Shown piece after piece: positions 6,482 to 23,463 of a stretch of DNA of 64,000 nucleotides. Within the stretch, counting starts at the first letter, position 1; every line of letters starts with the position of its first letter. Both the position numbers and the translations under genes were made by a program. The notes below the pieces were generated by a model, which saw nothing but the letters and a program-made list of their open reading frames with translations, was not told where the DNA came from and did not search any database. Source of the stretch: Desulfovibrio desulfuricans DSM 642 (lineage in GTDB: Bacteria > Desulfobacterota > Desulfovibrionia > Desulfovibrionales > Desulfovibrionaceae); NCBI RefSeq assembly GCF_000420465.1, contig NZ_ATUZ01000016.1, forward strand, positions 124,001-188,000. Direction: 5' to 3'.

Positions 6482-8053
6482 TTACAATGATGGCATGCCC
6501 AGCAGCAACCGGGCGGAAACAACCACCTGCATGATAACCTGGGTGATGTCCTTGACTGCCTGCATATTTTTGGATTCCACCTTGGGCAGTACCATTACCT
6601 GATCGCCGGGCAGGATATCATCGCCGTTCTGCGACACCGAGCCGTTCTGGTGCAGCACCAGAACCTTGTCGTGGTCTGCGCGGTTGGTGTAACCGCCAGC
6701 TCCCTTGATGTAGTCGTCCACATCCTTCTTTTTGCCCCACAGCATGGCCTGCGGCATCATGACCTCGCCGCTTACCAGCACCACGTCGCTCTTGGGCGGG
6801 ATCACAATGATATCGCCGTCTTCCAGTGAGAGGTCGGCCTTGTCAGGCCCGCCGTCAAGCACAACCACGCCTTCCGGTTCCACGCTCTTGGCCCGCTCCA
6901 CAAATTTGGAGACCATCTCCGCCTCCTTGGCGCGGATGGCTGCTTCATCCGCGCTGGCAGAGGAAGCCGTGAGGGCTGTTTCCTCCAGTCTGCGCAGGGA
7001 ATCTGCAATGGCCTTTTTCTGTCGGGCGGCAACGCTCTTGCGTTTGATGTACATGGCCTGAAGGTTGGCGCGGCCAGGCTCCACGGCAATAAAGTTCTTC
7101 ACTTCCTGCAAACGGGCGCCGCGCCGCACGGGAAAGCGCGAAGCCCCGCGCACTGCGCCCTGCACCTCAACCATCATGGTATTGCCGGGCGCATCAGCAA
7201 TAAACTGCACCTGATCGCCGTCTTCAAGCATCAGGTTGCGCAGTTCCTTGAGCGGCAGATAGGTGCTGTAAGGCGCGCCGTTGCGGGTGCCGGAAAGGGC
7301 GATGTGCGAGGCGCTGTTTTGAGGTTCGGCCAGTTCAATCAGGGCCGTGCCTGTGGATTTTCCCTTGGGAAATTCAAATTTTGCGGAGGTGCGCACCGCG
7401 CCGATGGCCGTAATGGTGGGGCCTTTGTCGCCCACCACAAGCGTGTCGCCTTCCTGCACGCGCACTGCGGGCAACACGCCCTTGCGGGCAAAGGGGTAGA
7501 GGTCGAGGCTGGCAACGGCCTTGCCGTCACGCATCAGGCGGATGTCACGATAACTGCCGCGCATGGGGTCAAGGCCTCCGGCCTTGTCCAGAAAGCTCAG
7601 CAACGGGTCGCCGGGGGTGCCGGTGTAACGTCCAGGTCTGGCAACGCCGCCGGTGACAAAAACGGCCACAGGCCGGGCATCCAGAGGCGCAGCATAAATC
7701 TGCGCATCACCATGGCCGTTGGCGGCAAGTTTGCTGCGCAAGGCTTCGGCCAGCTTGTCGTAGCCAAGGCCAGCCACGGGTATGGCCCCCACCTCCGGTA
7801 CGTCCAGATGCCCGTCGGCGGCTACAGTCAGTGTGCTGTCCACCTTGAGGTCGCCGCCCCACAGGCGCAGCACCACCCGGTCGCCCGGTGCGATGATGGA
7901 GGCGTCTTTGGCGTCCTTGGCGGTGTCCTTGCTCTGCGAAAAATTGCCCTGAAACAGGTTGGCAGCGTAGGGCTGGGGTGCATTTTCGGCCTTGACCGCG
8001 CTGGACAGGGCGAAAAAGATCAGCAGAAAAGTGAAAATAGTTCTGTGCGACAT
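6482..8053 (-). CDS. Polysaccharide export outer-membrane protein (Wza/SLBB type)
   Basis: The protein is 523 residues from the ATG at 8053, where an N-terminal signal peptide (MSHRTIFTFLLIFFALSSAV) begins; an alternative start 11 codons upstream is possible and neither has a strong ribosome binding site. After the signal comes a Poly_export domain (APGDRVVLRLWGGDLKVDSTLTVAADGHLDVPEVG) and then several SLBB beta-grasp repeats (VFVTGGVARPGRYTG, VEVQGAVRGASRFPVRRGA, VLVSGEVMMPQAMLWG). A Lys/Arg/Glu-rich, probably coiled-coil segment of about 70 residues interrupts the middle SLBB units. Such proteins form the outer-membrane channel for capsule or exopolysaccharide. No synthesis genes are adjacent, so it may be an orphan or work with a distant locus. 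Confidence 0.85.
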   Translation of the reverse strand: MSHRTIFTFLLIFFALSSAVKAENAPQPYAANLFQGNFSQSKDTAKDAKDASIIAPGDRVVLRLWGGDLKVDSTLTVAADGHLDVPEVGAIPVAGLGYDKLAEALRSKLAANGHGDAQIYAAPLDARPVAVFVTGGVARPGRYTGTPGDPLLSFLDKAGGLDPMRGSYRDIRLMRDGKAVASLDLYPFARKGVLPAVRVQEGDTLVVGDKGPTITAIGAVRTSAKFEFPKGKSTGTALIELAEPQNSASHIALSGTRNGAPYSTYLPLKELRNLMLEDGDQVQFIADAPGNTMMVEVQGAVRGASRFPVRRGARLQEVKNFIAVEPGRANLQAMYIKRKSVAARQKKAIADSLRRLEETALTASSASADEAAIRAKEAEMVSKFVERAKSVEPEGVVVLDGGPDKADLSLEDGDIIVIPPKSDVVLVSGEVMMPQAMLWGKKKDVDDYIKGAGGYTNRADHDKVLVLHQNGSVSQNGDDILPGDQVMVLPKVESKNMQAVKDITQVIMQVVVSARLLLGMPSL

Positions 8054-9055: not shown

Positions 9056-10096
9056 ATGTCCAAACTGGCAATGAAAACCATCCATGTGCATGACGCCGTG
9101 GGCAGTATTTTGTGTCACGACATCACCAGAATTATTCCTGGTGAAAGCAAAGGGCCTGTTTTTCGCAAAGGCCATGTTGTGCGGGAAGAAGACGTGGAGG
9201 TGCTGCTGCAGGTCGGCAAAGAGCATCTTTATGTTTTTGAATCCCTGCCCGGCATGGTTCACGAAAATGATGCCGCCGCGCGTGTTATTTCTGCCGTTTC
9301 CGGCGGCAACCTGACATGCACGGAACCCAAGGAAGGGCGTATTGACCTCAAGGCTGCCTGTGACGGGTTGCTGCGGGTGGATGTGCCTGTTCTCAACCGT
9401 ATAAACAGCCTTGGCGAAATTTCTGTCGCAACCATCCACACCATGCAGCACGTAACCAAGGGGCGCTCGGTAGCGGGAGCCCGCGTGGTGCCGTTGATGA
9501 TTGAGGATGAAAAATTGCGGCAGCTTGAATCGTTCGTCGACGGGCCAGTCGTTGAAGTTCTGCCGCTGCGCCGCGCCAGGGTTGGCGTGGTCACAACAGG
9601 CAGCGAAGTGTTTTACGGGCGCATTCAGGATGCCTTTGGCCCTGTGCTGCGCAAAAAGTTTGTCGCTCTGGGCAGCACGGTGGTGGGGCAGACCCTTACC
9701 AGCGACGAAGTGCCCATGACTGCCGGAGCGATCAGGGATTTTCTCGAACAAGGTGCTGATTTTATTGTGGTAACAGGCGGAATGTCTGTTGACCCTGACG
9801 ACCGTACGCCAACCGCCATCCGCGCTTCCGGAGCGGAGGTGGTCAGCTATGGCGCGCCGGTGTATCCGGGCGCCATGTTCCTTCTGGCCTATGCCCAGGG
9901 GGCGGCAGGCCGGGTGCCCGTGTTGGGGCTGCCCGGCTGCGTCATGTACCACAAGGCCAGTATTTTTGATCTCGTTGTGCCGCGCCTGCTGGCCGGCATT
10001 GAGGTAACGGCTGCCGATGTGGCGGCATTGGGGCACGGGGGCTTTTGCTCCCAGTGTGAAGAATGCCGCTATCCGATCTGTCCGTTCGGGAAATAG
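9056..10096 (+). CDS. MoeA/MogA-like molybdopterin-binding protein with Cys-rich tail
   Basis: The protein is 346 residues, starting at an ATG behind GGGAGAGG. The second half is a MoCF-biosynthesis (MogA-like) domain: VGVVTTGSEVFYGRI, VVTGGMSVDPDDRTP and VLGLPGCVMYHKASIFD carry the molybdopterin-binding loops. The first half is only loosely MoeA-like and the family is shorter than MoeA (about 400). The last 16 residues hold four Cys (CSQCEECRYPIC), which look like a metal or Fe-S site. It lies 76 bases before mop on the same strand, so it probably helps handle the molybdenum cofactor for Mop, for instance in molybdate insertion. The role is inferred from domain and position. Confidence 0.85.
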   Translation: MSKLAMKTIHVHDAVGSILCHDITRIIPGESKGPVFRKGHVVREEDVEVLLQVGKEHLYVFESLPGMVHENDAAARVISAVSGGNLTCTEPKEGRIDLKAACDGLLRVDVPVLNRINSLGEISVATIHTMQHVTKGRSVAGARVVPLMIEDEKLRQLESFVDGPVVEVLPLRRARVGVVTTGSEVFYGRIQDAFGPVLRKKFVALGSTVVGQTLTSDEVPMTAGAIRDFLEQGADFIVVTGGMSVDPDDRTPTAIRASGAEVVSYGAPVYPGAMFLLAYAQGAAGRVPVLGLPGCVMYHKASIFDLVVPRLLAGIEVTAADVAALGHGGFCSQCEECRYPICPFGK

Positions 10097-10172: not shown

Positions 10173-12896
10173 ATGGAAACAAAAACCCTTGTGATTAACG
10201 GCATTCCCCGGCGCTTGCTGGCTAACCCTGACGATATGCTTGTGGACGTGCTGCGCGACCAGTTGCAGCTCACCAGTGTCAAAGTTGGCTGCGGCAAGGG
10301 CCAGTGCGGTGCCTGCACGGTGATCCTTGACGGCAAGGTTGTACGCGCCTGCGTGGTCAAAATGAGCCGCGTGGCGGAAAACGCCGCCGTGACCACGCTT
10401 GAGGGCGTGGGCACCCCCAGCAACCTGCATCCGCTCCAGCATTCCTGGATTTACCACGGCGCGGCCCAGTGCGGTTTCTGTACCCCTGGTTTCATCGTTT
10501 CGGCCAAGGCCCTGCTTGATTCCAATCCCAATCCCAGCCGTGAAGACGTGCGCGACTGGTTCCAGAAAAATCACAACGTCTGCCGCTGTACGGGCTACAA
10601 GCCCCTGGTGGACGCGGTCATGGACGCAGCCGCCCTCATGCGCGGCGATAAAACGCTGGACGACGTTACCTTCAAGATGCCTGCCGATGGCCGCATCTGG
10701 GGCTCCACCATGCCCCGTCCTTCTGCCGTCGCCAAGGTGACGGGCACCGCCGAATTCGGCGCGGACGCGGCGCACCGCCTGCCCGCCAACACCCTGCACC
10801 TCGCCATTGCCCAGGCCAAGGTATCCCATGCCAACATCAAGGGCATCGACACCTCTGAAGCCGAAAAAATGCCCGGCGTGTACAAGGTGCTGACCCACAA
10901 GGATGTGAAGGGCAGGAACCGCATCACCGGCCTGATCACCTTCCCCACCAACAAGGGCGACGGCTGGGAACGTCCCATCCTTAACGATACCAAAATCTTC
11001 CAGTACGGCGATGCGCTTGCCATCGTCTGCGCTGACTCCGAATGCAACGCCCGCGCCGCAGCTGAAAAGGTCAAGTTTGACCTTGAGCTGCTGCCCGAAT
11101 ACATGAGCGCTCCGGAGGCCATGGCCCCGGACGCCATCGAAATCCACCCCGGCACCCCCAACATCTACTATGACCAGATTGAGGAAAAAGGCGCGGATAC
11201 CGCTCCCTTCTTCAATGATCCGGCAAACGTTGTCGCGGAAGGCGATTACTACACCCAGCGCCAGCCCCACCTGCCCATCGAACCCGATGTGGGCTATGGC
11301 TATGTGAACGACAAGGGCCAGGTGGTTCTCCACTCCAAGTCCGTTGCCATCCATCTGCACGCGCTGATGATCGCCCCCGGCCTCGGCCTGGAATTCCCCA
11401 AGGATCTCGTGCTGGTGCAGAACACCACGGGCGGCACCTTTGGCTACAAGTTCAGCCCCACCATGGAAGCCCTTGTGGGCGTGGCCGTTATGGCTACCGG
11501 CCGTCCCTGTCATCTGCGCTACAACTACGAGCAGCAGCAGAACTACACCGGCAAACGTTCGCCCTTCTGGACGACCGTGCGTTTTGCCGCCAACAAGCAG
11601 GGCAAAATTCTTGCCATGGAAACGGACTGGAGCGTTGACCACGGTCCTTATTCCGAATTTGGCGATCTGCTCACCCTGCGCGGTGCGCAGTACATCGGCG
11701 CTGGTTACGGCATCGCCAACATTCGCGGCAAGGGCCGCACCGTTGCCACCAACCACTGCTGGGGTGCGGCTTTCCGCGGTTACGGCTCGACGGAATCCGA
11801 ATTCCCCTCCGAAGTGCTTATGGATGAACTGGCTGAAAAGCTGGGCATGGATCCCTTCGACATCCGCGAGCTGAACTGCTACCGCGAAGGCGATACCAAT
11901 CCCTCTGGTCAGGTGCCTGAAGTCATGAGCCTGCCCGAAATGTTCCAGAAAATGCGCCCCTACTACGAAGAAGCCAAAAAGACCGTCAAGGCCAAGTCCA
12001 CCGCCGAAGTCAAACGCGGCGTGGGTATTGCCCTTGGCGTGTACGGCGCTGGCCTTGACGGGCCGGACACCTCCGAAGCCTGGGCCGAACTGAACCCCGA
12101 TGGCAGCGTAACCGTGGGCAACTCGTGGGAAGATCACGGTCAGGGCGCGGATTCCGGCACCCTGGGTACCGCTCACGAAGCCCTGCGCCCCCTGAATGTC
12201 AAGCCCGAAAACATCCATCTGGTCATGAACGACACCAGCAAGACCCCCAATTCCGGCCCTGCTGGCGGTTCGCGCTCCCAGGTTGTCACGGGCAACGCCA
12301 CCCGCGTGGCCTGCGAAATGCTTATTGAAGGCATGCGCAAGCCCAGTGGCGGCTTCTTCACCTATGAGGAAATGAAGGCCGAAGGCCGCCCCGTGCACTA
12401 TGACGGCAAGTGGTCTGCTCCGGCCAAGGACTGCGACGCCAAGGGCCAGGGCGAACCCTTTGCCTGCTACATGTACGGTCTGTTCCTTGCCGAAGTGGCC
12501 GTTGAGGTCGCGACCGGCAAGACCACGGTTGAAAAGCTTGTGTGCGTGGCCGACATCGGCACCCTGTGCAACAAGCTGGTGGTTGACGGCCAGATCTACG
12601 GCGGCTTGGCGCAGGGCGTTGGCCTTGCCCTGACCGAAGACTACGAAGACCTGAAGAAGCACAGCACCCTTGCTGGCGCGGGCGTGCCCACCATCAAGAT
12701 GATTCCTGACGACATGGAAATCGTCTATGTGCAGACCCCCCGCAAGGCTGGCCCCTTCGGCGCTTCCGGCGTGGGCGAAATGCCCCTTACCGCGCCGCAT
12801 CCTGCCATCATCAACGCCATCTACAATGCTTGCGGCGCGCGTGTGCGCCACTTGCCCGCCCGCCCCGAAAAGGTGTTGGCGGCCATGCCCAAGTAG
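10173..12896 (+). CDS. mop: Molybdenum aldehyde oxidoreductase Mop
   Basis: The protein is 907 residues, exactly the length of the D. gigas enzyme, with an AAGGAG site before the ATG. A plant-type [2Fe-2S] domain has Cys40, 45, 48 and 60; a second, helical [2Fe-2S] domain has Cys100, 103, 137 and 139. The rest is the xanthine-oxidase-family molybdenum domain. The catalytic base is Glu869 in GVGEMPL, at the same number as in D. gigas Mop. The enzyme oxidises aldehydes to carboxylic acids and passes electrons out through the Fe-S centres. It has no FAD domain, as expected, and no signal peptide. Characterised Desulfovibrio Mop carries molybdopterin cytosine dinucleotide, which suits the nucleotidyltransferase at 19910. 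Its codon use suggests high expression. Confidence 0.97.
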   Translation: METKTLVINGIPRRLLANPDDMLVDVLRDQLQLTSVKVGCGKGQCGACTVILDGKVVRACVVKMSRVAENAAVTTLEGVGTPSNLHPLQHSWIYHGAAQCGFCTPGFIVSAKALLDSNPNPSREDVRDWFQKNHNVCRCTGYKPLVDAVMDAAALMRGDKTLDDVTFKMPADGRIWGSTMPRPSAVAKVTGTAEFGADAAHRLPANTLHLAIAQAKVSHANIKGIDTSEAEKMPGVYKVLTHKDVKGRNRITGLITFPTNKGDGWERPILNDTKIFQYGDALAIVCADSECNARAAAEKVKFDLELLPEYMSAPEAMAPDAIEIHPGTPNIYYDQIEEKGADTAPFFNDPANVVAEGDYYTQRQPHLPIEPDVGYGYVNDKGQVVLHSKSVAIHLHALMIAPGLGLEFPKDLVLVQNTTGGTFGYKFSPTMEALVGVAVMATGRPCHLRYNYEQQQNYTGKRSPFWTTVRFAANKQGKILAMETDWSVDHGPYSEFGDLLTLRGAQYIGAGYGIANIRGKGRTVATNHCWGAAFRGYGSTESEFPSEVLMDELAEKLGMDPFDIRELNCYREGDTNPSGQVPEVMSLPEMFQKMRPYYEEAKKTVKAKSTAEVKRGVGIALGVYGAGLDGPDTSEAWAELNPDGSVTVGNSWEDHGQGADSGTLGTAHEALRPLNVKPENIHLVMNDTSKTPNSGPAGGSRSQVVTGNATRVACEMLIEGMRKPSGGFFTYEEMKAEGRPVHYDGKWSAPAKDCDAKGQGEPFACYMYGLFLAEVAVEVATGKTTVEKLVCVADIGTLCNKLVVDGQIYGGLAQGVGLALTEDYEDLKKHSTLAGAGVPTIKMIPDDMEIVYVQTPRKAGPFGASGVGEMPLTAPHPAIINAIYNACGARVRHLPARPEKVLAAMPK

Positions 12897-13139
12897 CGTA
12901 AGATTGCGGTAAACATCTGGAGACACTGGGGAGAATCCTGCTTGAAAAGGGATTCTCCCCATATCCCAGCCCCATGTTTATTCGTCAGGTTTACCGCGCG
13001 CCGTTACGGTGTGCAATGTTTTTTGCAGCGGGGCTTTCGGGGGTATCTCTGAAAGCCCTGTTTGTATTTTCGGCGGCAATCTGCGCCGCCTGCCCTTGCC
13101 GCAGCGCCTGTCTGCACCAAGCCAGCGAGAACAATCGCC
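12897..13139 (+). promoter_or_regulatory. Three consecutive hairpins between mop and the following operon
   Basis: Just after the mop stop, GGGGAGAATCC pairs with GGGATTCTCCCC (12928-12960), without a T-run. GGGCTTTC pairs with GAAAGCCC (13031-13058), followed by TGTTTGTATTTT, like an intrinsic terminator. GGCGGC pairs with GCCGCC at 13072-13090. Together they could partly terminate or process the transcript so that mop is made in excess of the downstream genes. No strong promoter is visible in the gap. Confidence 0.55.
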
Positions 13140-15653
13140 ATGATGGATCAACAACGTCTGCACGAAATAGAGTCGCACTGTACACAGGAAAGCCCGCCCC
13201 GTTGTCGGGTGGCCTGTCCTTTTGATCTGGATGTGCGCGCCTTCATGGCCCGCATGGCTGAAGGCAAGCAGGGCGAGGCCCGCAAGGTGCTTGAGCGGCA
13301 TTTGCCCCTGCCCGGCATTGTTGCCCGCATTTGCGACCACCCCTGTGAAAACGCCTGTCTGCGGCAGGATCTGGGCGGCAGCCTTGCCATGCATGGGCTT
13401 GAACTCTCGTGCATGCTTGCGGTGGGTACGCAGACCCGTCTGTTGCCTTTACCACCCAAAAAATTTCGTATGGCTGTGATGGGCGCCGGGCTTGCCGGGC
13501 TCACGGCAGCCTGGGATCTGTCGCGCAAGGCCTATCCTGTTGCAGTCTTTCACTCGGGCGCGCCGGGCGAATTTTTGCTGGCAGCGCATCCTGCTCTGGC
13601 GGCAGTCAATACGGCGGGCATTGCCAAGAATTTTTTGGCGGAAGACATGGAAACCCTTGGCCGCCAGAAGGTCAGTTTTACAAAGGCGACGCTTGATGCC
13701 GCGCTGCTGGAAAAGCTGGCTGCGGAGTACGACGCCGTGCTGGTGGACGCCGATGCCGTGCAGCAGCTTGCACCCGGCCTTGTACCAGACGAAGCGCAGG
13801 TGGATGCGGAAACCCTGCTCTGGCGCGACAATATCTGCTGCGCTGGCTGGCGCAGCCGCACCCCCACAGGCCACACTTTCGCCTCACCTTCGCGTCAGGC
13901 CGGGCAGGGGCGGCATGCGGCGCAGACTATGGAACGCGTGACCAGCGGCGTTTCACTCACAGCCGCGCGGGACAAATCTCAGGGGCCGCTGCACACCGAT
14001 GTAACGGGCATAAGCCCCGTGCCGCGTGTGGAACCTGCCGCGCAGGCTGCTTGCGGCGAGTCGCTCTATTCGGCGGAGGAATCCGCGCGCGAGGCGGAGC
14101 GCTGCCTGCAATGCCAGTGCATGATCTGCGTGCGCGAATGCGTGTACCTGCAGAAATACAAGGGCTACCCGCGCCTCTACGCGCGTCAGGTCAATAACAA
14201 CGCGTCCATCGTCAAGGGGCTGCACACGGCCAATGCCCTCATCAACGGCTGCGCCCTGTGCGGTCAGTGCGAGGAACTGTGCCCGGAGAATTTTTCCATG
14301 GCCGAACTGTGCCTTTCCGCACGGGAAGACATGGTGGACCGCGGCTTTATGCCCCCCACGGCCCACGAGTTTGCGCTTGAGGATATGGAAAGCGCCTCCG
14401 GGCCGGAATGCGCCCTTGTGCTGCCGCCCTTGTTGCCAGCCGCAGAATCCCAGGGCGCTGGCGCGAATCTGGATGCAGGCGAACAGTGGCTGTTTTTTCC
14501 CGGTTGTCAGTTGGCTGCAGCCCGCGTGGAACAAACGGCGGCGCTTTATGATCTGCTGCGCGAAAAACTTGGCAACGGTTTGAAGTCCGGCGTGGGCATC
14601 ATGCTTTCCTGCTGCGGCATCCCAGCGCGCTGGGCCGGAAGAACCACCCTGTTCAAGGAGCATACGGACAAACTGCGCAAGGCTTGGGAGGGGCTGGGCA
14701 AACCGCGCATCATGGCGGCCTGTTCTTCCTGCATTGCGGCCTTGCGCGAGGCCCTGCCGGAAGCGCAGACTGTTTCCGTGTGGGAGGTGCTGGACAGCTT
14801 GCCGTTTGAGGCTCCCACTGCTGGTAATTCCCTGCCCTCGGTTTTTTCCATTCAGGATCCCTGTACCGCTCGGCACGATGCGTCATGGCTTGCCGCTGTG
14901 CGCAGCCTGGCTGGCAAATGCGGGGCAAAAATTGAAGAACCGCGCCTTTCCGGTGCTTCCACAGCCTGTTGCGGCTACGGCGGCCTTGTGTGGTGCGCCC
15001 AGCCGGAAACCGCCCGCGCCATGAGCGATCACCGGGCCGCCCAGCTTGAGCACCCCGGCCTTGCCTCATGCATCATGTGCCGTGACCGCATGGCGGCCAG
15101 CGGCAAGGAATGCTGGCATCTGCTTGATCTGTTGCTGCCCGTGTCAGCCAAGGCGCAGTCCGGCGCGGCTCAAGGCCCCGGTCTTTCGGCGCGCCGCGCC
15201 AACAGGGCTGCCTTGCGCCGCAAACTGCTGGAGAAATACGGCAGTGCCGCCGGGCAACAGGCCCTGCTTGCAAACACGCCCGAGCAGGCGGGAAAGGGCA
15301 GGGTGCTGGTGACGGAGGAAGTGCTGGCGCGGCTGGAAGAGCGGCATATCCTGCTCTCAGACGTGGAAGGGGCCGTTGTGGGGGCCGAGGCCAGCGGCCA
15401 CTGGTTTGAAAATCTGGATGACGGGCATCGTCTTGGTTCGTGGCGGCCCAGAAAGGTGACTTTTTGGGTGGAATACGAAGCGCAGGGCGAGGCCTTTGTC
15501 CTGCACGATGCGTGGTGCCACCGTATGGTGGTGCCGGGTTCCGGCGGTCAGGAAGCTGCGGATGTCATCAACAGCCACCAGTGCTGCACCGATGGGCAGC
15601 GTCCCAATATGCAGGGTGCGCAAAATGGCGGGCAGAGAGGTGAACAGTCATGA
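13140..15653 (+). CDS. Pyridine-nucleotide-disulfide oxidoreductase / dicluster / CCG-domain fusion
   Basis: The protein is about 837 residues if the ATG at 13140 is used (13143 is equally possible; the ribosome binding site is poor). Order of parts: a GltD-like N-terminal Cys region (CRVACPFDLDV, CDHPCENACLRQ); a Rossmann fold with GAGLAG near residue 116; two ferredoxin-like Cys groups (CLQCQCMICVREC, CALCGQCEELCPENF); two CCG heterodisulfide-reductase-type domains (LSCCGIPARW and ACCGYGGLVWC); and a C-terminal 120-residue tail. It is probably a cytoplasmic electron-transfer hub linking NAD(P)H, Fe-S centres and a disulfide- or CoA-like partner. It resembles what I remember as the DVU_1558-type 'dicluster-binding' family. 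It overlaps the next gene by 4 bases. Confidence 0.85.
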   Translation: MMDQQRLHEIESHCTQESPPRCRVACPFDLDVRAFMARMAEGKQGEARKVLERHLPLPGIVARICDHPCENACLRQDLGGSLAMHGLELSCMLAVGTQTRLLPLPPKKFRMAVMGAGLAGLTAAWDLSRKAYPVAVFHSGAPGEFLLAAHPALAAVNTAGIAKNFLAEDMETLGRQKVSFTKATLDAALLEKLAAEYDAVLVDADAVQQLAPGLVPDEAQVDAETLLWRDNICCAGWRSRTPTGHTFASPSRQAGQGRHAAQTMERVTSGVSLTAARDKSQGPLHTDVTGISPVPRVEPAAQAACGESLYSAEESAREAERCLQCQCMICVRECVYLQKYKGYPRLYARQVNNNASIVKGLHTANALINGCALCGQCEELCPENFSMAELCLSAREDMVDRGFMPPTAHEFALEDMESASGPECALVLPPLLPAAESQGAGANLDAGEQWLFFPGCQLAAARVEQTAALYDLLREKLGNGLKSGVGIMLSCCGIPARWAGRTTLFKEHTDKLRKAWEGLGKPRIMAACSSCIAALREALPEAQTVSVWEVLDSLPFEAPTAGNSLPSVFSIQDPCTARHDASWLAAVRSLAGKCGAKIEEPRLSGASTACCGYGGLVWCAQPETARAMSDHRAAQLEHPGLASCIMCRDRMAASGKECWHLLDLLLPVSAKAQSGAAQGPGLSARRANRAALRRKLLEKYGSAAGQQALLANTPEQAGKGRVLVTEEVLARLEERHILLSDVEGAVVGAEASGHWFENLDDGHRLGSWRPRKVTFWVEYEAQGEAFVLHDAWCHRMVVPGSGGQEAADVINSHQCCTDGQRPNMQGAQNGGQRGEQS

Positions 15654-15865
15654 GCATGGGGCCAAACTACGGGCCGGACGGCGGCCAGTGGGTGTGCGGG
15701 CGTTGCCACGTTGCCCTTGAGCAGGTGAAGGTTCCGGTTTTTTATCTCAACAGCGCCTTTGACGTGTTTTTGCCGCGGTGCCCCAAGTGCGGGCTGACGC
15801 AGGTGCCCAAATCTTTGGCCGAAGGCAAGATGCTTGAGGTGGAAGCACTGCTGGAAGATAAATGA
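15650..15865 (+). CDS. Small CxxC redox protein (DVU_1557 type)
   Basis: The protein is 71 residues and has two CxxC pairs, CGRC near residue 16 and CPKC near residue 44, separated by a hydrophobic stretch. This is a rubredoxin- or zinc-ribbon-like arrangement, so it could carry one metal ion or an Fe-S centre. The start ATG overlaps the stop of the previous gene (ATGA) and its stop overlaps the start of the next gene the same way. I recall a Desulfovibrio family of this size and position named after DVU_1557; its biochemical role is unknown. An electron carrier for the adjacent oxidoreductase is the simplest guess. Confidence 0.8.
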   Translation: MSMGPNYGPDGGQWVCGRCHVALEQVKVPVFYLNSAFDVFLPRCPKCGLTQVPKSLAEGKMLEVEALLEDK

Positions 15866-16740
15866 ACGCACTGTGGGAAAGGCCCGACTTTCGCCGCGCG
15901 GCTGGTGACGCATGGCGTCCCGGCGGCGTGGAACTGACGCGCCGCGCCCTGGCGTGGTGCGCCTCTGCGGGCCTGCTCGCGCCCGGTGGGCTGGTTCTTG
16001 ACTTTGGCAGCGGGGCAGGGGCGACATTGCGCCTGCTTACGCAGATGGGCTACCGCGCCGTGGGGCTGGACAAACACGCTGAGGCCGGGATTTCTGTCGA
16101 TGCCAGCCCCTCAGTCAACGCGCCACATAGTGATGATTGCCGCCTTGTGCGGGCCGACCTTGAGCGCCCGCCGCTGGCCGCAAACTCCTGCGACTGCATA
16201 GTGTGCGAGTGCGTTCTTTCTCTGCTGCACAATCCTCTTGCAACCTTGCGCGCCGCCTGCAGCGCTCTGCGCCCCGGCGGTCTGCTGGTGGTCAGCGACC
16301 TCATGCTGCGGCCAGGGTATGAACGCCCCGCCAGCGGTGGCTGCTCTGGTACAGGCTCTTCCCGCTCAGGTTGTTCCTGTTCCGGGCATGCAAGCGGATT
16401 GCAGTCAGGTGCGCCCCAATACAGCCCGCTGGAAACAGAAACGGCTCAGGCCCTTCCGGCAGAATACGCTGCGCCGGGTTCATCGTGCCTCGCGGGTGCG
16501 CGGCCTGAATCAGCGTGGCGGGGGCTTGTGGAAGCGGCTGGCTTGCGCCTGCTGCATTTTGAGGACAACAGCCGCGCTCTGGTGGAGCTGGCCGCCCGCA
16601 TGATCTGGTACGGCGATGATGCAACCCGGCCCGTGGCGAATTACGGCAGCCAGGGCTGCGCATGCGGGGGCGCTGCCCCCGGCAAAGCTTGGCGCGCCTA
16701 CGGATACGGTCTTTGGATTGCCCGAAAGGAGACGCTATGA
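15862..16740 (+). CDS. trsM: SAM-dependent methyltransferase (DVU_1556 / TrsM type)
   Basis: The protein is 292 residues and begins at an ATG overlapping the preceding stop by 4 bases. Class I methyltransferase motifs are visible: motif I as VLDFGSGAGATLRLL followed by the acidic residue in GLDKHAEA, and the post-motif ALRPGGLLVVSDL. An insertion rich in Gly, Ser and Cys (around residues 155-185) interrupts the C-terminal half. The substrate is unknown. The symbol follows a family name I remember for methyltransferases always found with this gene set; it has not been checked here. Its fixed place between the CxxC protein and the radical SAM gene suggests it acts on a product or cofactor of the same pathway. 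Confidence 0.8.
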   Translation: MNALWERPDFRRAAGDAWRPGGVELTRRALAWCASAGLLAPGGLVLDFGSGAGATLRLLTQMGYRAVGLDKHAEAGISVDASPSVNAPHSDDCRLVRADLERPPLAANSCDCIVCECVLSLLHNPLATLRAACSALRPGGLLVVSDLMLRPGYERPASGGCSGTGSSRSGCSCSGHASGLQSGAPQYSPLETETAQALPAEYAAPGSSCLAGARPESAWRGLVEAAGLRLLHFEDNSRALVELAARMIWYGDDATRPVANYGSQGCACGGAAPGKAWRAYGYGLWIARKETL

Positions 16741-17201
16741 ATCCCATGATGATGGAATTGCTGCCCCTGGTGCATCAGGGCTATTGTTGCAGCCAGTTGC
16801 TGCTCCTGCTCATGTTGCAGGCTCAGGACAGGCAGAACCCCGGTGTTGTGCGCGCCGCGCAAGGCCTGTGTCACGGCATCGGTCAATCGGACGGTCCCTG
16901 TGGTCTCTTGACCGGCGGGGCCTGCGCCCTGGCTCTGGTTGCGGGTAAAGGAGCGGAAGATGAAATTCCGCATCCCATGCTCACCCCCCTGCTCAATGAT
17001 TACGCCACGTGGTTTTATGACCGCACGGAAGCTTACGGCGGTCAGCGTTGCGGGCAGATTGCGGCTGGGCTTGGCGCGACTTCCGGCGCTGCGGGCGAGC
17101 AGCCAAATCCTGTGGCCTGCGGCGACTTGCTGGCAGAATGCTGGGGAAAAATTATGGAACTGGTTCAGAGTTACGAGCTGGATCTGACGGAAAAGGCATG
17201 A
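16737..17201 (+). CDS. C_GCAxxG_C_C family protein (DVU_1555 type)
   Basis: The protein is 154 residues, taking the ATG at 16737 that overlaps the methyltransferase stop (ATGA); a longer frame runs inside that gene. Hallmarks are an N-terminal GYCCSQLLLLLM helix and CHGIGQSDGPCGLLTGGACAL, matching the Cys-Gly pattern of the C_GCAxxG_C_C redox-active or metal-binding family, plus a later conserved-looking VACGDLLAECW. Members are cytoplasmic and typically accompany oxidoreductases. The function is unknown. Its stop overlaps the radical SAM start by 4 bases. Confidence 0.82.
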   Translation: MNPMMMELLPLVHQGYCCSQLLLLLMLQAQDRQNPGVVRAAQGLCHGIGQSDGPCGLLTGGACALALVAGKGAEDEIPHPMLTPLLNDYATWFYDRTEAYGGQRCGQIAAGLGATSGAAGEQPNPVACGDLLAECWGKIMELVQSYELDLTEKA

Positions 17202-18667
17202 CCCTGCGCCGCACCCAGAGCCTCTGCCCCGTATGCCTGCGCCGGGTAGAGGCGACCTATGAACGCTCGGCAAAGGATGCACTCACTGTCGTACTGCGCA
17301 AAACCTGCCCGGATCATGGCACGTTCAGCGTCCCCGTATGGCAGGAAGCCAAGCCAGGAGAGGTTGCTACGCCGCCCTTTACAGCATGGTCACGGCCCAA
17401 AAGCCCCTCCTACCCGGCCAATCCGCACACGCCAATCCGCGAGGGCTGCCCCTTTGACTGCGGCCTTTGTCCTGCTCACGCCCAGCATACCTGCACCGGT
17501 CTGTTTGAAGTGACCATGCGGTGCGACATGGCCTGCCCTGTGTGCTATGCCTCTGCTGGTTCTATGTCGAATCAAAATTCTGGAGCGACGGCTGACGTGC
17601 CGCTGAGCGTGATTGCCGCGCAAATGGACACCCTCAAGGGAGCGTCCGGCCCCTGCAACGTGCAGATATCCGGCGGGGAGCCGACCATGCGCCATGACCT
17701 GCCGCAGATCATCACGCTTGCGCGGCAACGCGGTTTTGGGCTGGTGCAGATCAATACCAACGGGCTGCGTCTGTCGCGTGAGCAGGGCTATGCCCATGCG
17801 CTGCGCGAGGCCGGGCTTGATTCCATCTACCTGCAATGGGACGGCGTGCGCGAAAGCAGTTTTACAAGCCTGCGGGGTAGGGAATGCCTCGATTTCAAGC
17901 GCCGTGCCGTGCGCAACTGCGCAGAGGCCGGGCTTGGCGTGGTGCTGGTGGCGACCCTTGTGCGCGGCGTCAATGATGGTGAACTGGGCGATCTGCTGCG
18001 CATGGCGCTGGAGCTTGGCCCCGCGGTGCGGGGTTTGCACATGCAGCCAGCCGCCTTTTTTGGGCGTTACCCCTGGCGGCTGGAGGAAGCCCCGCGCCTG
18101 ACCCTGCCCGAAGTCATGGCAGCGCTTGCCCGGCAGGCACCGGAAATAGTCAGCCTCAGTCACCTGCACCCGCCGGGATGCGAAAACGAGCTGTGTTCCT
18201 TTAGTGCCGTGTATCGCCGGGTGCAGAAGAACGGCGTACCTTCGCTGGAATGGCTGGCCGATGCGGGGCAGTCGTGCTGTTCACCTGCGCCGCAGTCCGC
18301 TGGCGCGGAAGTGCCTCCGCCCGCTGAGGACGGGGCGCGTAAGGCCAAGCAGTTTGTGGCCCTGCACTGGAAGGGCGGCACCGGCTGTGGGGAATCTGCC
18401 TGTGCCTGCGGGGGAGCCTCTGGCTCTGACGCTGACAGCGCAGGCAACAATGCCAGTGCGGATGGCTTCAGCCGGTTTCTTGCCCAGGCCGGGGCAGAGC
18501 AGCGCTTCACGCTTTCGGCCATGGCCTTTCAGGATGCCCTGAGCCTCGACCTTGACCGCGTGCGCGGCTGCTGCATCCATGTGGTGCGGCCAGACGGGCG
18601 CATGATTCCGTTCTGCCTGCACAACCTCACTGCCAGCGATGGCACGCGCCTGTATGGTGATGCCTAG
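17198..18667 (+). CDS. trsS: Radical SAM protein (TrsS type)
   Basis: The protein is 489 residues from the ATG at 17198, overlapping the upstream stop. The radical SAM cluster motif C-x3-C-x2-C is at Cys109, 113 and 116 (RCDMACPVC), followed by a GGEPT motif (SGGEPTMR). An N-terminal CPVC pair and a CPFDCGLC segment at about residues 83-90 add further metal-site cysteines. A C-terminal Gly/Cys-rich insertion (GCGESACACGG) is odd, and related proteins are, as I recall, sometimes selenoproteins; here Cys codons are used and no in-frame TGA is seen. It probably makes an unknown modification or cofactor in the cytoplasm. The stop overlaps the next GTG start by one base. Confidence 0.85.
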   Translation: MTLRRTQSLCPVCLRRVEATYERSAKDALTVVLRKTCPDHGTFSVPVWQEAKPGEVATPPFTAWSRPKSPSYPANPHTPIREGCPFDCGLCPAHAQHTCTGLFEVTMRCDMACPVCYASAGSMSNQNSGATADVPLSVIAAQMDTLKGASGPCNVQISGGEPTMRHDLPQIITLARQRGFGLVQINTNGLRLSREQGYAHALREAGLDSIYLQWDGVRESSFTSLRGRECLDFKRRAVRNCAEAGLGVVLVATLVRGVNDGELGDLLRMALELGPAVRGLHMQPAAFFGRYPWRLEEAPRLTLPEVMAALARQAPEIVSLSHLHPPGCENELCSFSAVYRRVQKNGVPSLEWLADAGQSCCSPAPQSAGAEVPPPAEDGARKAKQFVALHWKGGTGCGESACACGGASGSDADSAGNNASADGFSRFLAQAGAEQRFTLSAMAFQDALSLDLDRVRGCCIHVVRPDGRMIPFCLHNLTASDGTRLYGDA

Positions 18668-19821
18668 TGACAGATGACGTAAATCATCCTTCCAGAGCAG
18701 GTTTCGGCTCCTGCCCGCTTAATCTCTGGCTGGCCCGTCAGTGCGGCGCGTACAGCCCTGCGGAACTGCCCGGCAAGCTGGAGGCTGCGCAAACGGCCTT
18801 GCTGCGCAGCACCTTGCGGCAGGCCCTGTGCGGGGCGTTTTATGCCAGGCATTTGCGGGAGTGCGATCTGGATATAACCAGTATGGATCATCTGGAGCGC
18901 CTGCCCTTCACCACTGCGGAAGACCTGCGCAACTGGGGGGATTTTTTGTGCGTTTCGCAGGGGGATGTGCAGCGTATGGTCACGCTGCACACGTCAGGCA
19001 CCACGGGGCAGCCCAAACGGCTTGCCTTTACTGATGAGGACTTGGCCCGTACGCGCGATTTTTTTGCCGTGGGTATGAGCCAGCTTGTGGGCGCGGGGCA
19101 GCGGTTGGCAGTGCTGTTGCCCGGTGCGGAGCGGCCTGACGGCGTGGCCGACCTGCTGCGGCAGGCTTTGAGCGCGGCGGGTGTGGAAGTGCTGGCTCCA
19201 CCGCCGGAAGTCCACGCGGCCCCAGCGCCAGATGCTGGCTCTTGTGTGGAGGCGGGCGGAGAGCCATGCAGTATGCCACCCCCGGGCAAAGCTCTTGCCC
19301 AATGGCTGGAGCAGGCAAAGCCCCATTGCCTTGTGGCCGCGCCGGCGCAACTCGCCCTTTTACTGAAGTACTTTCCCCACCGGGGGCCGCAGGGGCTTGC
19401 GGGCATCCTCACCAGCGCGGAGCCTCTGGATGATGCGCTTGGTCTGGCCTTGCGCCGGGCGTGGCAATGCGAGATTCTGGATCACTACGGCCTTACCGAA
19501 ACCGCTTACGGCTGCGCGGTGGAATGCCGGGCGCATCAGGGCTTTCATGTGCGCGAACTGGACGTTCTGATAGAAATAGTAGATATTTCAGGGCGTAAAA
19601 TATTGGCCCAAGGCGAGGAGGGCGAGGTCGTCATTACCACGCTCCAACGTCAGGCCATGCCCTTGGTGCGATATCGAACCGGTGATGTGGCCTGTCTGCT
19701 CACGGCTCCTTGCGCCTGCGGCAGCCCTTTGCGCAGGCTTGGCCCTGTGCGTGGACGCATTGAGCGCAAAAACGGGCAACCGACGCGCATCGTGCGTCCC
19801 GCCAAGGGGCGGGGTGTTTAG
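18667..19821 (+). CDS. AMP-dependent CoA-ligase-like protein (DVU_1553 type)
   Basis: The protein is 384 residues and begins at a GTG sharing a base with the previous TAG. It has the adenylate-forming P-loop LHTSGTTGQPKRLAF near residue 107, the YGLTE motif near 273, and MPLVRYRTGDVACLL near the C-terminus, as in phenylacetate-CoA ligase and coenzyme F390 synthetase. The C-terminal mobile domain is short compared with PaaK (about 430). It should activate a carboxylate with ATP, possibly the acid produced by Mop, or adenylate a cofactor; neither is shown. No CoA-binding determinants can be read with certainty. Confidence 0.82.
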   Translation: MTDDVNHPSRAGFGSCPLNLWLARQCGAYSPAELPGKLEAAQTALLRSTLRQALCGAFYARHLRECDLDITSMDHLERLPFTTAEDLRNWGDFLCVSQGDVQRMVTLHTSGTTGQPKRLAFTDEDLARTRDFFAVGMSQLVGAGQRLAVLLPGAERPDGVADLLRQALSAAGVEVLAPPPEVHAAPAPDAGSCVEAGGEPCSMPPPGKALAQWLEQAKPHCLVAAPAQLALLLKYFPHRGPQGLAGILTSAEPLDDALGLALRRAWQCEILDHYGLTETAYGCAVECRAHQGFHVRELDVLIEIVDISGRKILAQGEEGEVVITTLQRQAMPLVRYRTGDVACLLTAPCACGSPLRRLGPVRGRIERKNGQPTRIVRPAKGRGV

Positions 19822-19909
19822 CGTCTGATGCCATGCCCGGCAATGGGGCTTATTGTATCTGCTCCATACTTTGATTGTTTTCAGCGCAGAAACGCGAAGA
19901 AGAAAGCAC

Positions 19910-21157
19910 ATGAAACCAGCCGTTCTGATTCTTGCCGCAGGTATGGCCTCGCGCATGGGCGCAGCCAAGGCCCTGCTTTCCCTGCCATCGTTGCCCGAAG
20001 GCGCGAGCTGCTCCGCCCTGAGGGGGCTGGTCTGTCTGTACCGCGCCCTTGGTGTGGAAAATGTGGTGATCATCAGCGGCTTCCACGCCGAAGTTGTGGA
20101 AGCAGAGGCACTGGTGCTGGGACTGACCGCAGTGCGGAATCCCGACCCGCAGCGGGGCATGTTTTCATCTGTGCAGACTGGTGTGGAGGCCCTGGTGAAG
20201 GGCGGTTTTGACGGGCAGTTTTTTGTGCAGCCTGTGGATGTGCCGCTGGTGCGGCCCCTGACCATCACGGCATTGCTTGATGCCGCAGGGCAGGAAGAGG
20301 CCAACCAATCGGCAGCTCTGGCCGTGAGCGGCAAGGCCGCGCCCATGCCGGTGCTTGTGCCGACATTTGACGGACAGGAGGGGCATCCTCCCCTGATTCC
20401 CATGACTTTGGCCACGCATATTCTGGCGCACCAGGGGCAAAACGGGCTGCGCGGGGCGCTGGAAGGCGCACCCCTGCGGCATGTACCTGTGGCTGACGCC
20501 CTGATTCTGGAAGATATGGACACCCCCGATGACTATGCGCGCCTGCGCGTGCTGGCCCGTGAGCGGTATACTCTCTCGCCTGTGGAGGCGGAATGCCTGC
20601 TGCACACGTGCAATGTGCCGGAAAAAGGCTTGCGCCATGCGCGGGCAGTGGGGGCTGTGGCCTGCTGTCTGGCTGAGGCTCTGGCGCATGCGCGTGAGGC
20701 CGCAGGCTATGATGCCGGGGTGGACCCCCGTCTGGCGCTGGCTGGCGGGTTGCTGCACGATATCTGCAAAGGCCAGCCCAGGCATGAGGCGGCTGCTGGG
20801 GAATTTTTGCGGCGGCTGGAACTGCCGGAAATGGCGCGTCTGGTGCAGGATCACCGCGATCTGTCCTTGCCGGAGGACGAACCGGTCACAGAGCGCGAAT
20901 TGGTCTATCTGGCGGACAAATATTGCTACGGCGGCAACTTTGTGCCCGTGCAGCGGCGTTTTGGCCTCAAAATGGAGGCTTACGCCCAGGATGCCCCGGC
21001 CTGCGAGGCCATCCATGGGCGGCTTGGTCGCGTCAAGGCGCTGGAAGAGCGCATTGCCCGCGAAATAGGCAAAGAACCCGCCCTGGTGGCGGAACGCGCC
21101 CTTGTGCGTAATTGCAATGCAGCGCGCAGCAATGCTGCCCGGCGTGAGGTTGCATGA
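19910..21157 (+). CDS. MobA/MocA-like nucleotidyltransferase fused to HD domain (DVU_1551 type)
   Basis: The protein is 415 residues from the ATG at 19910; an upstream frame extension lacks support. The first 200 residues form a nucleotidyltransferase with LILAAGMASRMGAAKALL as its nucleotide loop and a VQPVDVPLVRP metal-binding segment. From about residue 240 an HD-type domain follows (HARAVGAV ... GGLLHDICKGQPRHE, HD near residue 283). MocA-type enzymes attach CMP to molybdopterin; since Desulfovibrio Mop uses the cytosine dinucleotide form, this is the best candidate to make it. The HD part may be a phosphohydrolase. The assignment is an inference from fold and place. It overlaps the next start by 4 bases. 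Confidence 0.83.
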   Translation: MKPAVLILAAGMASRMGAAKALLSLPSLPEGASCSALRGLVCLYRALGVENVVIISGFHAEVVEAEALVLGLTAVRNPDPQRGMFSSVQTGVEALVKGGFDGQFFVQPVDVPLVRPLTITALLDAAGQEEANQSAALAVSGKAAPMPVLVPTFDGQEGHPPLIPMTLATHILAHQGQNGLRGALEGAPLRHVPVADALILEDMDTPDDYARLRVLARERYTLSPVEAECLLHTCNVPEKGLRHARAVGAVACCLAEALAHAREAAGYDAGVDPRLALAGGLLHDICKGQPRHEAAAGEFLRRLELPEMARLVQDHRDLSLPEDEPVTERELVYLADKYCYGGNFVPVQRRFGLKMEAYAQDAPACEAIHGRLGRVKALEERIAREIGKEPALVAERALVRNCNAARSNAARREVA

Positions 21158-21726
21158 GCGGCATCTGGCTGGTGCGGCACGGCATGTTGCCGCCCAATCC
21201 GGAGCGGCGCATGGTCGGCGCGCGGGATATCCCCTTAAGCCCTGCGGGCAGGGAGCAGATACGCCTTTTGGCGCGGCAGTTCATGCCAGCGGTGCAGGGC
21301 GCGCTTGGCGCGGTCATCTGCTCGGATCTTGACCGCTGCCGGGAGACTGCCGCCATCCTGATGGAGGCATTGCCGGGGCGGCCTCCCCTGCATGTGGAGC
21401 CCGGTCTGCGCGAGATTGACCTTGGCCTCTGGCAGGGAATGACCAAGGCGGAAATTGAGCTCGCATGGCCCGGAGCGCATGCCGCGCGCGGGCAGGATAT
21501 GGCGCACTTTTGCCCCCCGCATGGCGAAAGCTTCATGCAGGCCCAGCGCCGCGCTCTGGCGGCTGTGGCGCGCTGGAGGAGGTTTTACCCCGGTGCAACC
21601 CTGCTCATGGTTTCGCATGCGGGTATTCTGGGCAGCCTGCTGGCCCACTACCTTGCCCTGCCGCTCAAGGATGTGCTGCGCATACCCCAATACTACGGGT
21701 GCCGCGCCTTTGTGCCGGAATGGTAG
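21154..21726 (+). CDS. Histidine phosphatase family protein
   Basis: The protein is 190 residues and starts within the stop of the preceding gene (ATGA). It has the phosphohistidine signature LVRHGML at residues 6-12, an SDLDRCRETA segment, the acid/base Glu in LREIDLGLWQG and the second catalytic His in MVSHAGI. Such enzymes include CobC (alpha-ribazole phosphatase) and phosphoglycerate-mutase-like phosphatases. No cobalamin genes lie nearby, so the role is more likely tied to the mop-linked operon, of which it is the last gene; the substrate is unknown. Confidence 0.85.
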   Translation: MSGIWLVRHGMLPPNPERRMVGARDIPLSPAGREQIRLLARQFMPAVQGALGAVICSDLDRCRETAAILMEALPGRPPLHVEPGLREIDLGLWQGMTKAEIELAWPGAHAARGQDMAHFCPPHGESFMQAQRRALAAVARWRRFYPGATLLMVSHAGILGSLLAHYLALPLKDVLRIPQYYGCRAFVPEW

Positions 21727-22344: not shown

Positions 22345-22686
22345 TCAGCTTGTGTGCAGCAGCACCATGCCGCAGACAAGCAGGGCAATACCTGCAAATG
22401 CGCAGGGGTAGAGCTTTTGGCGCAGCAACAGCCATCCGCCCACGGATGTGCCAAGCACGCCAAAACCGCCCCACATGGCGTAAGCCACGGCCAAATCCAT
22501 ATGATGAACTGCCAGTGAAAGGCAATAGAAAGCCAGCCCCACCAGCGCAAGGGCCAGCAGGCCCACGGCGCGGCGGCGGAAGCTGTCGGAGCGCACAAGC
22601 AGCATGTTGACGGTCACGTCCAGCGCGGCGGCCAGCAAAACCAGCGGCAGGGCGGCGTTCTGGAACAGGCTTGAAATATCCATCAT
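22345..22686 (-). CDS. mdtI: SMR-family efflux subunit, MdtI-like
   Basis: The protein is 113 residues with four hydrophobic segments spanning nearly its whole length, the size and topology of small multidrug resistance proteins. It starts at 22686 behind AGGAGG, overlapping the stop of the partner gene by 4 bases. The segment AYAMWGGFGVLGTSVGGWLLL is the SMR signature region. SMR pairs such as MdtJI form heterodimers that export spermidine or cationic compounds in exchange for protons. In the first segment an Asp (ALDVTVN) takes the place of the usual Glu, which fits the non-catalytic or paired-type subunit. Confidence 0.82.
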   Translation of the reverse strand: MMDISSLFQNAALPLVLLAAALDVTVNMLLVRSDSFRRRAVGLLALALVGLAFYCLSLAVHHMDLAVAYAMWGGFGVLGTSVGGWLLLRQKLYPCAFAGIALLVCGMVLLHTS

Positions 22687-23150
22687 CTGTTCCCTCCTGC
22701 AGCAAGGCCGTTATTCAGGGCAGGCCCTTCTGCGCGCGGCTTGCGGGCTACAGCCTTGCCGCTGGCCGTGGGGGATTCCTCGCGACTGGGCTTGGGTGTT
22801 CCGTGCCCGGTTCCGTAATTGACCAGCAAAGCGCCAGAAAGCACGCAGGCCAGACCCAACGCGCGGCGCAAGGTCAGGGCTTCGTTCAGAAAAAGCACGC
22901 TGCCCAGAGTGATGCAGGTCAGGCCCAGCCCTTCCCAGAAGGCAAAGGTCACGCCGACGGGAATGCCCGTAACGGCCTTGGACAAAAAAAAGTAGGACAT
23001 GGCGATGGCCAGCCACATGACAACCAGCCCCAAAATCTGTGCGTGGGGAAAAGCCCAGCCCTGCGCCAGCTTCATGACAAGTGTTCCGCCCACCTCCAGA
23101 AATACGGAGGCAACAAGGCAGCACCAATGGTACGGTTTTGATCTAAGCAT
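22683..23150 (-). CDS. mdtJ: SMR-family efflux subunit, MdtJ-like, with C-terminal tail
   Basis: The protein is 155 residues from the ATG at 23150 (MLRSKPYH); an upstream in-frame start lacks a ribosome binding site. Four membrane segments follow, the first carrying the essential Glu (ASVFLEVGGTLVMK), with YFFLSKAVTGIPVGVTFAFWEG as the SMR signature (quoted in two parts: YFFLSKAVTG and IPVGVTFAFWEG). Compared with MdtJ (about 120) it has an extra 40-residue basic, Pro/Ser-rich tail, which would be cytoplasmic. It is paired with the MdtI-like gene by an ATGATG overlap. Likely substrates are polyamines or cations. Confidence 0.82.
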   Translation of the reverse strand: MLRSKPYHWCCLVASVFLEVGGTLVMKLAQGWAFPHAQILGLVVMWLAIAMSYFFLSKAVTGIPVGVTFAFWEGLGLTCITLGSVLFLNEALTLRRALGLACVLSGALLVNYGTGHGTPKPSREESPTASGKAVARKPRAEGPALNNGLAAGGNR

Positions 23151-23463
23151 AAAAATCTCTCGCGGAAAATAGAAAGACAATCCTTCAGCATTGAAGGACA
23201 ACAATGGCTATGACCAGAGGAAGTAGCGAGAGATGCTAGAGCAGGGAACGCCAGTAGCGTTCTTCAGGAAAGCCTGAAACGCATGGGCGTAAAAGAGGCA
23301 TAAAAGCAGAGTTGAAGCATAACATGCATAGATCATAAGGCCGTGAGATGGGGGAGTCAAGGTTGCAGTATGTGCTGGCTATTCCCGATACTCACTGATG
23401 CAGGATCATTCAAGCCGCCCTATGATTGCGCCTTGAAGGCGTAAGCGAGCGAAAGTTCAGCAT
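23151..23463. other. Intergenic region upstream of mdtJI
   Basis: About 310 bases between the mdtJ start and the hisA terminator. It should contain the mdtJI promoter; no clear promoter elements, gene or RNA could be named. Confidence 0.4.

Follow-up and report, generated by a model that had tools for sequence, protein, structure and literature searches.

The genes behind the aldehyde oxidoreductase gene mop of Desulfovibrio desulfuricans form a composite of a Mop-side piece and a separable TrsS module

The tetraether lipid synthase Tes binds three 4Fe-4S clusters besides a rubredoxin-like iron, has a labile Met among its ligands, and couples two sp3 carbons via a carbon-sulfur intermediate on one cluster; homologues have been noted in bacteria that are not known to make such lipids (PMC9433317, in the sections drawn on here). 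The aldehyde oxidoreductase Mop of Desulfovibrio is described as lacking the flavin of its relatives, flavodoxin being only a putative partner, and the Mop of D. desulfuricans ATCC 27774 has been sequenced and crystallised (PMC10223205, likewise in part). Mop is thus a well-studied enzyme, yet the literature that we searched gave no function for the genes behind mop (Haft and Tolstoy 2025 lay outside that search). Here we describe a 64,000-nucleotide stretch of D. desulfuricans DSM 642 (contig NZ_ATUZ01000016.1, positions 124,001 to 188,000; hereafter the window), in which mop is followed by a run of eight genes that includes trsS, the gene of a radical S-adenosylmethionine (SAM) enzyme homologous to Tes. 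A preliminary description had read the run as a single pathway that would make or recycle some unknown Mop-linked cofactor or redox carrier. The link with Mop held and proved to be widely conserved. The single pathway did not: the set is a composite of two pieces, and a carrier is a plausible product of one of them.

The run spans 13140 to 21726 on the plus strand, with starts picked from the sequence in the list of open reading frames (ORFs). The features of the locus, with their best family models, are:

9056 to 10096, plus strand: protein with a MoCF (molybdopterin-binding) domain, 346 residues (PF00994, 77.5 bits)
10173 to 12896, plus strand: Mop, molybdopterin-dependent aldehyde oxidoreductase, 907 residues (NF045668, 1655.6 bits; cut-off 1100)
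12927 to 12961, plus strand: 13-bp hairpin in the gap between mop and the run, from folding
13140 to 15653, plus strand: gene 1, flavin adenine dinucleotide (FAD)/4Fe-4S/CCG dicluster-binding protein, the flavin/Fe-S protein (NF045663, 865.4 bits; cut-off 530)
15650 to 15862, plus strand: gene 2, DVU_1557-type small protein (DUF7479) with two CxxC pairs (NF045645, 86.1 bits; cut-off 60)
15862 to 16740, plus strand: gene 3, DVU_1556-type SAM methyltransferase (NF045667, 188.4 bits; cut-off 155)
16737 to 17201, plus strand: gene 4, C-GCAxxG-C-C redox-type protein (NF045669, 158.6 bits; cut-off 103)
17198 to 18667, plus strand: gene 5, trsS, radical SAM enzyme (NF045646, 553.8 bits; cut-off 490)
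18667 to 19821, plus strand: gene 6, DVU_1553-type PaaK-like adenylate-forming protein, 384 residues, GTG start (NF045666, 384.8 bits; cut-off 300)
19822 to 19909: gap of 88 bases, the usual place of XdhC
19910 to 21157, plus strand: gene 7, DVU_1551-type MocA-like nucleotidyltransferase fused to an HD domain (NF045665, 375.3 bits; cut-off 315)
21154 to 21726, plus strand: gene 8, histidine phosphatase, nearest to alpha-ribazole phosphatase (PF00300, 152.9 bits)

The eight genes had been described as nearly all overlapping by 1 to 4 bases, and six of the seven junctions do overlap, by 1 or 4 bases (in gene order 4, 1, 4, 4 and 1 bases, then the 88-base gap, then 4 bases). The eight gene types named at that time are all backed by family models, with two caveats. 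The phosphatase reaches the cut-off of none of the named NCBIfam families (125.2 bits against 162.9 for TIGR03162, alpha-ribazole phosphatase CobC), and "CoA-ligase-like" is the family name for gene 6, an activity label given only by family; against phenylacetate-CoA ligase PaaK (TIGR02155) the protein reaches 100.5 bits, with a cut-off of 646.3. Mop and the other seven run genes exceed the cut-offs of the NCBIfam models listed above. The MocA-like/HD protein scores 89.2 bits against MocA, the molybdenum cofactor cytidylyltransferase (TIGR03310, cut-off 186.45), and a role as MocA is putative. The MoCF-domain protein stands under the cut-off of every NCBIfam model, and such a gene upstream of mop recurs in other loci. 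Residues 1-907 of the window Mop align with PDB entry 1dgj at 1925 bits, which we take to be the Mop of strain ATCC 27774.

The comparison of gene order around mop covered the 80 top-scoring loci among 542 confirmed matches to a TrsS profile made from 18 proteins. Upstream sequence of 7 kb or more was available for 59 of them, and in 56 of these (all except L098, L101 and L113) mop lies upstream of trsS on the same strand; a chance arrangement is therefore excluded. By record titles the hosts are Desulfovibrionaceae, other Thermodesulfobacteriota, Bacillota (including Clostridium, Acetobacterium and Geosporobacter), Chloroflexota (Anaerolineae) and Campylobacterota (Sulfurospirillum), at least four phyla. 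The set had been described as conserved around mop in Desulfovibrio; its conservation is much wider than that, and in most genomes the genes are not scattered. The fetched stretch lacked mop at 16 of the 80 loci, and among the 16 genomes concerned Mop over its cut-off was found elsewhere in nine, in pieces in three and not at all in four.

Co-occurrence of Mop and TrsS was strong in a survey of 887 genomes. In the phylum of the window (297 genomes) TrsS passed its cut-off in 33 genomes and Mop in 26, with both in 25; in the class of C. carboxidivorans (341 genomes) each was found in 14, the same 14 genomes; and in the Anaerolineae class of locus L068 (249 genomes) TrsS was found in seven and Mop in six, all six shared. 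Pooled, TrsS is present in 45 of 46 Mop genomes and Mop in 45 of 54 TrsS genomes (Fisher p 2e-65, uncorrected for kinship). The nine TrsS genomes without a full-score Mop include G104, with mop on two contig ends, and G253 and G765, also at contig ends, where the contigs break beside the module. Two genomes, G644 (L173 and L171) and G593 (L174 and L162), have lost trsS from its slot in the operon and keep TrsS elsewhere. That TrsS mostly stays in the genome after losing its linkage points to a need for its function and away from hitch-hiking, and we conclude that the link between Mop and TrsS is real and close to obligatory. These counts rest on the curated cut-off, weaker Mop relatives being taken as other families or fragments: matches below the cut-off only were found in 23 of the 297 phylum genomes, 21 of these without TrsS over cut-off, and in 8 of the 249 Anaerolineae genomes, none with TrsS over cut-off.

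A second Mop type of about 975 residues was seen at L163, L165, L172 and L176, scoring about 1160-1175 bits against about 1600. This longer type has its own flavin/dicluster gene and, at L163, L165 and L176, its own type of TrsS.

The set separates into two pieces. One goes with Mop and comprises the MoCF protein, the MocA-like/HD protein, the phosphatase, XdhC and the flavin/Fe-S protein; the other is a module of TrsS, the methyltransferase, the C-GCAxxG protein, the DUF7479 protein, the PaaK-like protein and a dicluster/CCG protein. In Desulforhabdus TSK the two lie on different contigs: the mop contig (L132) carries MoCF, mop, flavin/dicluster, DVU_1557, XdhC and MocA/HD/phosphatase genes, and a second contig (L101, assigned to genome G296 by identical match coordinates) carries a free C-terminal domain of the flavin/Fe-S protein, DVU_1557, methyltransferase, C-GCAxxG, TrsS and DVU_1553 genes. 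Six genomes of the phylum (G212, G131, G075, G108, G125 and G152; loci L119-L124) carry TrsS but lack a Mop that passes the cut-off. Their loci hold the methyltransferase and a DUF7479-type match, weak in two of the six (32 bits); the DVU_1553 type is present at five of the six, and the flavoprotein is replaced at five by a shorter dicluster/CCG protein. No MocA/HD, phosphatase or XdhC match was found at these six loci. With the methyltransferase staying beside TrsS there, one pathway of eight genes was rejected.

The same division is seen in the 56 genomes tested for individual families. The MocA/HD protein passed its cut-off in 28, all of which have Mop and TrsS (28 of the 45 genomes with both, against none of the six Mop-less ones). 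The methyltransferase did so in 50, namely 49 of the 54 TrsS genomes and G241; in the other five TrsS genomes it scores 110-152 bits at the TrsS locus. A tree of 105 TrsS and Tes-like proteins, made by a quick method with a midpoint root and long outgroup branches, places 88 Mop-type rows behind one branch with 96% support. Ten rows from mop-less loci fall on the side of the Tes-like rows, six from the Mop-less genomes and four (L164, L169) from two Clostridia genomes with Mop elsewhere. The simplest reading of this tree is that the TrsS module is older and was recruited to Mop once.

Several variants of the module were seen. In the two Clostridia genomes the trsS genes stand in tandem pairs with a diverged second copy (L164:6885-9474 and L169:2646-5241). 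A DUF5714 protein lies beside TrsS at L125:9477-10295 and L169:6621-7202, no C-GCAxxG protein was found in those loci, and the former may stand in for the latter. A 238-residue protein is encoded between the DUF7479 and methyltransferase genes at L123:2010-2726 and L124:11468-12184; the L123 protein matched no Pfam family, and no NCBIfam family at E 1e-10.

Like Tes, TrsS carries the ligands of several metal sites. Positions 2-429 of the 438 in the 18-sequence profile match residues 25-495 of the 526 of PDB entry 7tol at E 2.5e-124. All 18 rows keep C10, C13, C37 and H40 of the rubredoxin-like site, C84, C88, C91 and H94 of the N-terminal 4Fe-4S site, C109, C113 and C116 of the radical SAM CX3CX2C motif, and M442, C458 and C473, putative ligands of the C-terminal site with the labile Met. 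The Cys next to this Met in Tes is replaced in TrsS. Two further residues, Cys99 and Cys333, are invariant in TrsS where the aligned Tes has no Cys; C333 may stand in for the Tes Cys beside the Met. The curated cut-off places TrsS outside Tes (NF045702, 300.7 bits against 450), and to judge from the conserved ligands its chemistry is probably Tes-like. TrsS has also been tabulated as a selenoprotein family, credited to Haft and Tolstoy 2025, in a 2026 review consulted in part (PMC13188914). For the window trsS this reading was rejected: the gene has no internal TGA, and neither has any of the trsS matches listed, the one TGA flagged in the G473 match being the gene's own end.

The other proteins of the module were compared in the same way. 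The four Cys of the DUF7479 protein are kept in 86 of 86 sequences. A rubredoxin reading of this protein was not supported, with a poor model (mean predicted local distance difference test score, pLDDT, 72.4) and weak Foldseek matches (best E 0.057, to a small zinc-finger protein); its conserved C-terminal tail raised the idea of a modification target of TrsS, for which no evidence was found. In the methyltransferase Cys117 is kept in 86 of 86 sequences and Cys209 in 80 of 86, and these two may correspond to the arsenite-binding Cys pair. Arsenite methyltransferase is the second-best family model for the window protein, and arsenic methyltransferase structures are among the profile matches, though not the best ones. 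The window PaaK-like protein is shorter at its C-terminal end than a 433-residue relative in L081 and may lack the mobile C-terminal domain of adenylate-forming enzymes. Across the 80 loci, PaaK-like ORFs have about 357-392 residues in the window and many Desulfovibrionaceae loci versus 432-482 in most others. Fused forms also occur: a 1083-residue ORF at L098:9914-13165 joins the DVU_1553, DVU_1551 and phosphatase types, and the MocA/HD and phosphatase types form a single ORF at L083:4740-6656, L115:5624-7390 and L132:15721-17466.

The flavin/Fe-S protein follows mop directly even where the TrsS module lies elsewhere (L132, L172, L179). Judged on its L081 member, the family follows GltD-type flavoproteins over the FAD-binding half, after which some 160 residues of the partner chain are passed over (query 204-206 against chain 290-453). 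The NAD(P)H-binding domain of those flavoproteins lies in the region passed over, a part that this family lacks. From gene position and this architecture we infer that the protein is the natural flavin partner of Mop, and it is a concrete candidate for the flavin partner that Mop is missing. The protein is also weakly like YgfK (66.5 bits). Its tail of about 90 residues (window about 15340-15600) is a separate domain that occurs elsewhere as a free gene, at L101:8221-8493 and in L123, where the free domain matches profile positions 674-755. A model of the tail (pLDDT 90.0) has its best matches among RelE/BrnT-type folds (3u97: Z 7.6, root-mean-square deviation 2.9, 75 residues aligned), with no Foldseek E below 0.001; at Z 7.6 this modelled resemblance indicates no function.

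XdhC lies between the DVU_1553 and DVU_1551 types in 39 of the 51 loci that have both, and the window has none there. The single XdhC of the genome is encoded elsewhere, behind a gene read by eye as topoisomerase I, and its best family is NF045664 (XdhC_rel_AOR, named as an aldehyde oxidoreductase maturation factor) at 310.7 bits, below the cut-off of 350. The Mop of D. gigas works with an oxo ligand instead of the sulfido one (PMC3877041, consulted in part). The empty XdhC slot and an oxo-active Mop would fit, without proving, a looser need for a sulfur-loading chaperone.

Away from mop the module adjoins AFOR-family enzymes in L101 and L113 (the latter also with MoeA) and HGD-D-family proteins in L119, L121 and L169, and L119 and L121 have BadF-type activators as well; L164 encodes a protein of similar appearance, for which no Pfam match was found. 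These neighbours suggest, weakly, that the product of the module is useful to low-potential enzymes.

From these results we propose that the Mop unit consists of two pieces, the older TrsS module making a small-molecule cofactor or carrier for Mop and other low-potential enzymes, and we give this reading a probability of roughly 0.42. On the Mop side, the MocA-like/HD protein would put a cytidylyl group on the pterin cofactor, the phosphatase would act in the same branch, XdhC would load the cofactor into Mop from its place elsewhere in the genome, and the FAD/4Fe-4S/CCG protein would accept electrons from Mop, replacing the flavin subunit that Mop lacks. In the module, the PaaK-like protein would adenylate an acid and the methyltransferase would methylate the intermediate. 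TrsS would cleave SAM, as Tes does, with hydrogen then taken from an unactivated sp3 carbon, and would keep that carbon bound to a sulfur in the C-terminal cluster until a C-C or C-S bond is complete. Electrons would be fed or buffered by the C-GCAxxG, DUF7479 and dicluster/CCG proteins. The product would be a cofactor or electron carrier required by Mop and shared with other low-potential enzymes; other uses are expected because six genomes have TrsS without Mop. A bolder form, in which a new small electron carrier or cofactor with a Tes-type radical bond serves Mop, AFOR-type and 2-hydroxyacyl-CoA-dehydratase-type enzymes in anaerobes, we think unlikely.

A number of observations weigh against this proposal. 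G241, a metagenome-assembled genome of 94% completeness, carries mop and the module genes apart from trsS, in the order mop, flavin/dicluster, DVU_1557, methyltransferase, C-GCAxxG and DVU_1553; its trsS slot is empty, and the remainder of the assembly holds no TrsS either (best E 5.7e-16). G417, one of the Clostridia, has a partial Mop below cut-off (793 bits, positions 400-905) and no TrsS at E 1e-60, and in the Anaerolineae class G763 combines a broken Mop with the absence of TrsS. A mop split over two ORFs lies at L182:8600-11354, where the 19.9 kb fetched contained none of the module genes and the genome gave no TrsS at E 1e-60. Some genomes have a second Mop gene that stands by itself (L129, L130, L131). 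The 80 loci, being the best-scoring ones, lean to the Mop type, and the low-potential theme comes from few loci, with no AFOR or HGD-D neighbour at L120 or L122-L124 (judged partly by eye). Finally, neither the dye-linked activity of purified D. gigas Mop nor its chain through flavodoxin is described as requiring an unknown factor (PMC10223205, in the parts consulted).

The strict rule from Mop to TrsS would also be expected if the whole set were a maturation cassette, its TrsS, methyltransferase and PaaK-like protein acting on Mop itself or on the pterin cofactor in the way that XdhC and MocA act in related enzymes. MocA-, XdhC- and MoCF-type genes share the run, and molybdate-transport-like genes, named by eye, lie near several loci. 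We find this doubtful, since the module occurs without Mop in six genomes, the window Mop is covered end to end by the solved structure 1dgj, and high-resolution D. gigas structures are described without an unusual group in the portion of the report consulted, with the density itself not inspected (PMC3877041). Mop could instead be the source of low-potential electrons and TrsS their user, AFOR- and HGD-D-type enzymes taking that part elsewhere; other low-potential enzymes do adjoin the mop-less module, and Fe-S, CCG and CxxC proteins stand between Mop and TrsS in gene order. Such a scheme predicts a tighter tie of TrsS to a donor than of Mop to TrsS, and the data show the reverse (nine of 54 TrsS genomes without a full-score Mop, one of 46 Mop genomes without TrsS). 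Radical SAM enzymes generally use ferredoxin or flavodoxin, and we regard the scheme as quite improbable.

The odds stand equally low for a catabolic or lipid route, with Mop oxidising an aldehyde, the PaaK-like protein activating the acid and TrsS coupling or cutting alkyl chains. TrsS is kin to a lipid-coupling enzyme, and alcohol/aldehyde dehydrogenase-like genes and sigma-54 regulators recur nearby, as seen by eye. A SAM spent at each turnover would be costly for bulk catabolism, however, cofactor-type genes belong to the run, and no lipid-synthesis genes were recognised by eye in the top 30 recurrent neighbour clusters.

Between mop and the run lies a gap of 243 bases after the end of mop at 12896. 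The hairpin of 12927-12961 belongs to a 104-base stretch with a folding energy of -41.3 kcal/mol (z -4.3 relative to 200 shuffles). A terminator-like site lies at 13027-13062 in the same gap, a weak indication, since 13.2 kb hold 24 such sites over the two strands and shuffled sequence 13.8 on average. Because of the hairpin and this site, co-transcription of mop with the eight genes is not certain, and the expression levels of mop and the run may differ. Elsewhere in the window, the minus strand encodes a hybrid cluster protein over its cut-off (3450-5111), a Crp/Fnr-type regulator (5653-6522) and a pair of small SMR-type transporters nearest to MdtI/MdtJ and below cut-off (22345-23204).

The practically unbroken rule that Mop does not occur without TrsS makes the function of the module directly testable. 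A carrier, if the module does make one, would be a new cofactor; if it does not, the work would still point to a function for a large group of bacterial Tes relatives, a matter flagged as open in the sections of the Tes report drawn on here (PMC9433317). Parts of these findings may already be in print (Haft and Tolstoy 2025).

Nearly every gene of the set is already modelled by NCBI curators. The NCBIfam set NF045645, NF045646 and NF045663-NF045669 consists of name models (the DVU_1551-1557 families, TrsS, XdhC_rel_AOR and Mop); window genes pass the cut-offs of eight, and the ninth, XdhC, lies elsewhere in the genome just below its own. The cassette of the selenium-dependent molybdenum hydroxylases likewise has MocA- and XdhC-type genes, and the weak YgfK likeness of the flavin/Fe-S protein is a further resemblance; the TrsS, DVU_1556 and DVU_1553 types are not known to be part of it (no search for SelD or YqeB was made). 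TrsS is closest to Tes/GDGT-MAS of M. jannaschii (7tol). It differs from that enzyme in standing in an operon with Mop and in not being known to act on lipids, and it is alike in near full-length homology, in three metal-site ligand sets and in the labile Met.

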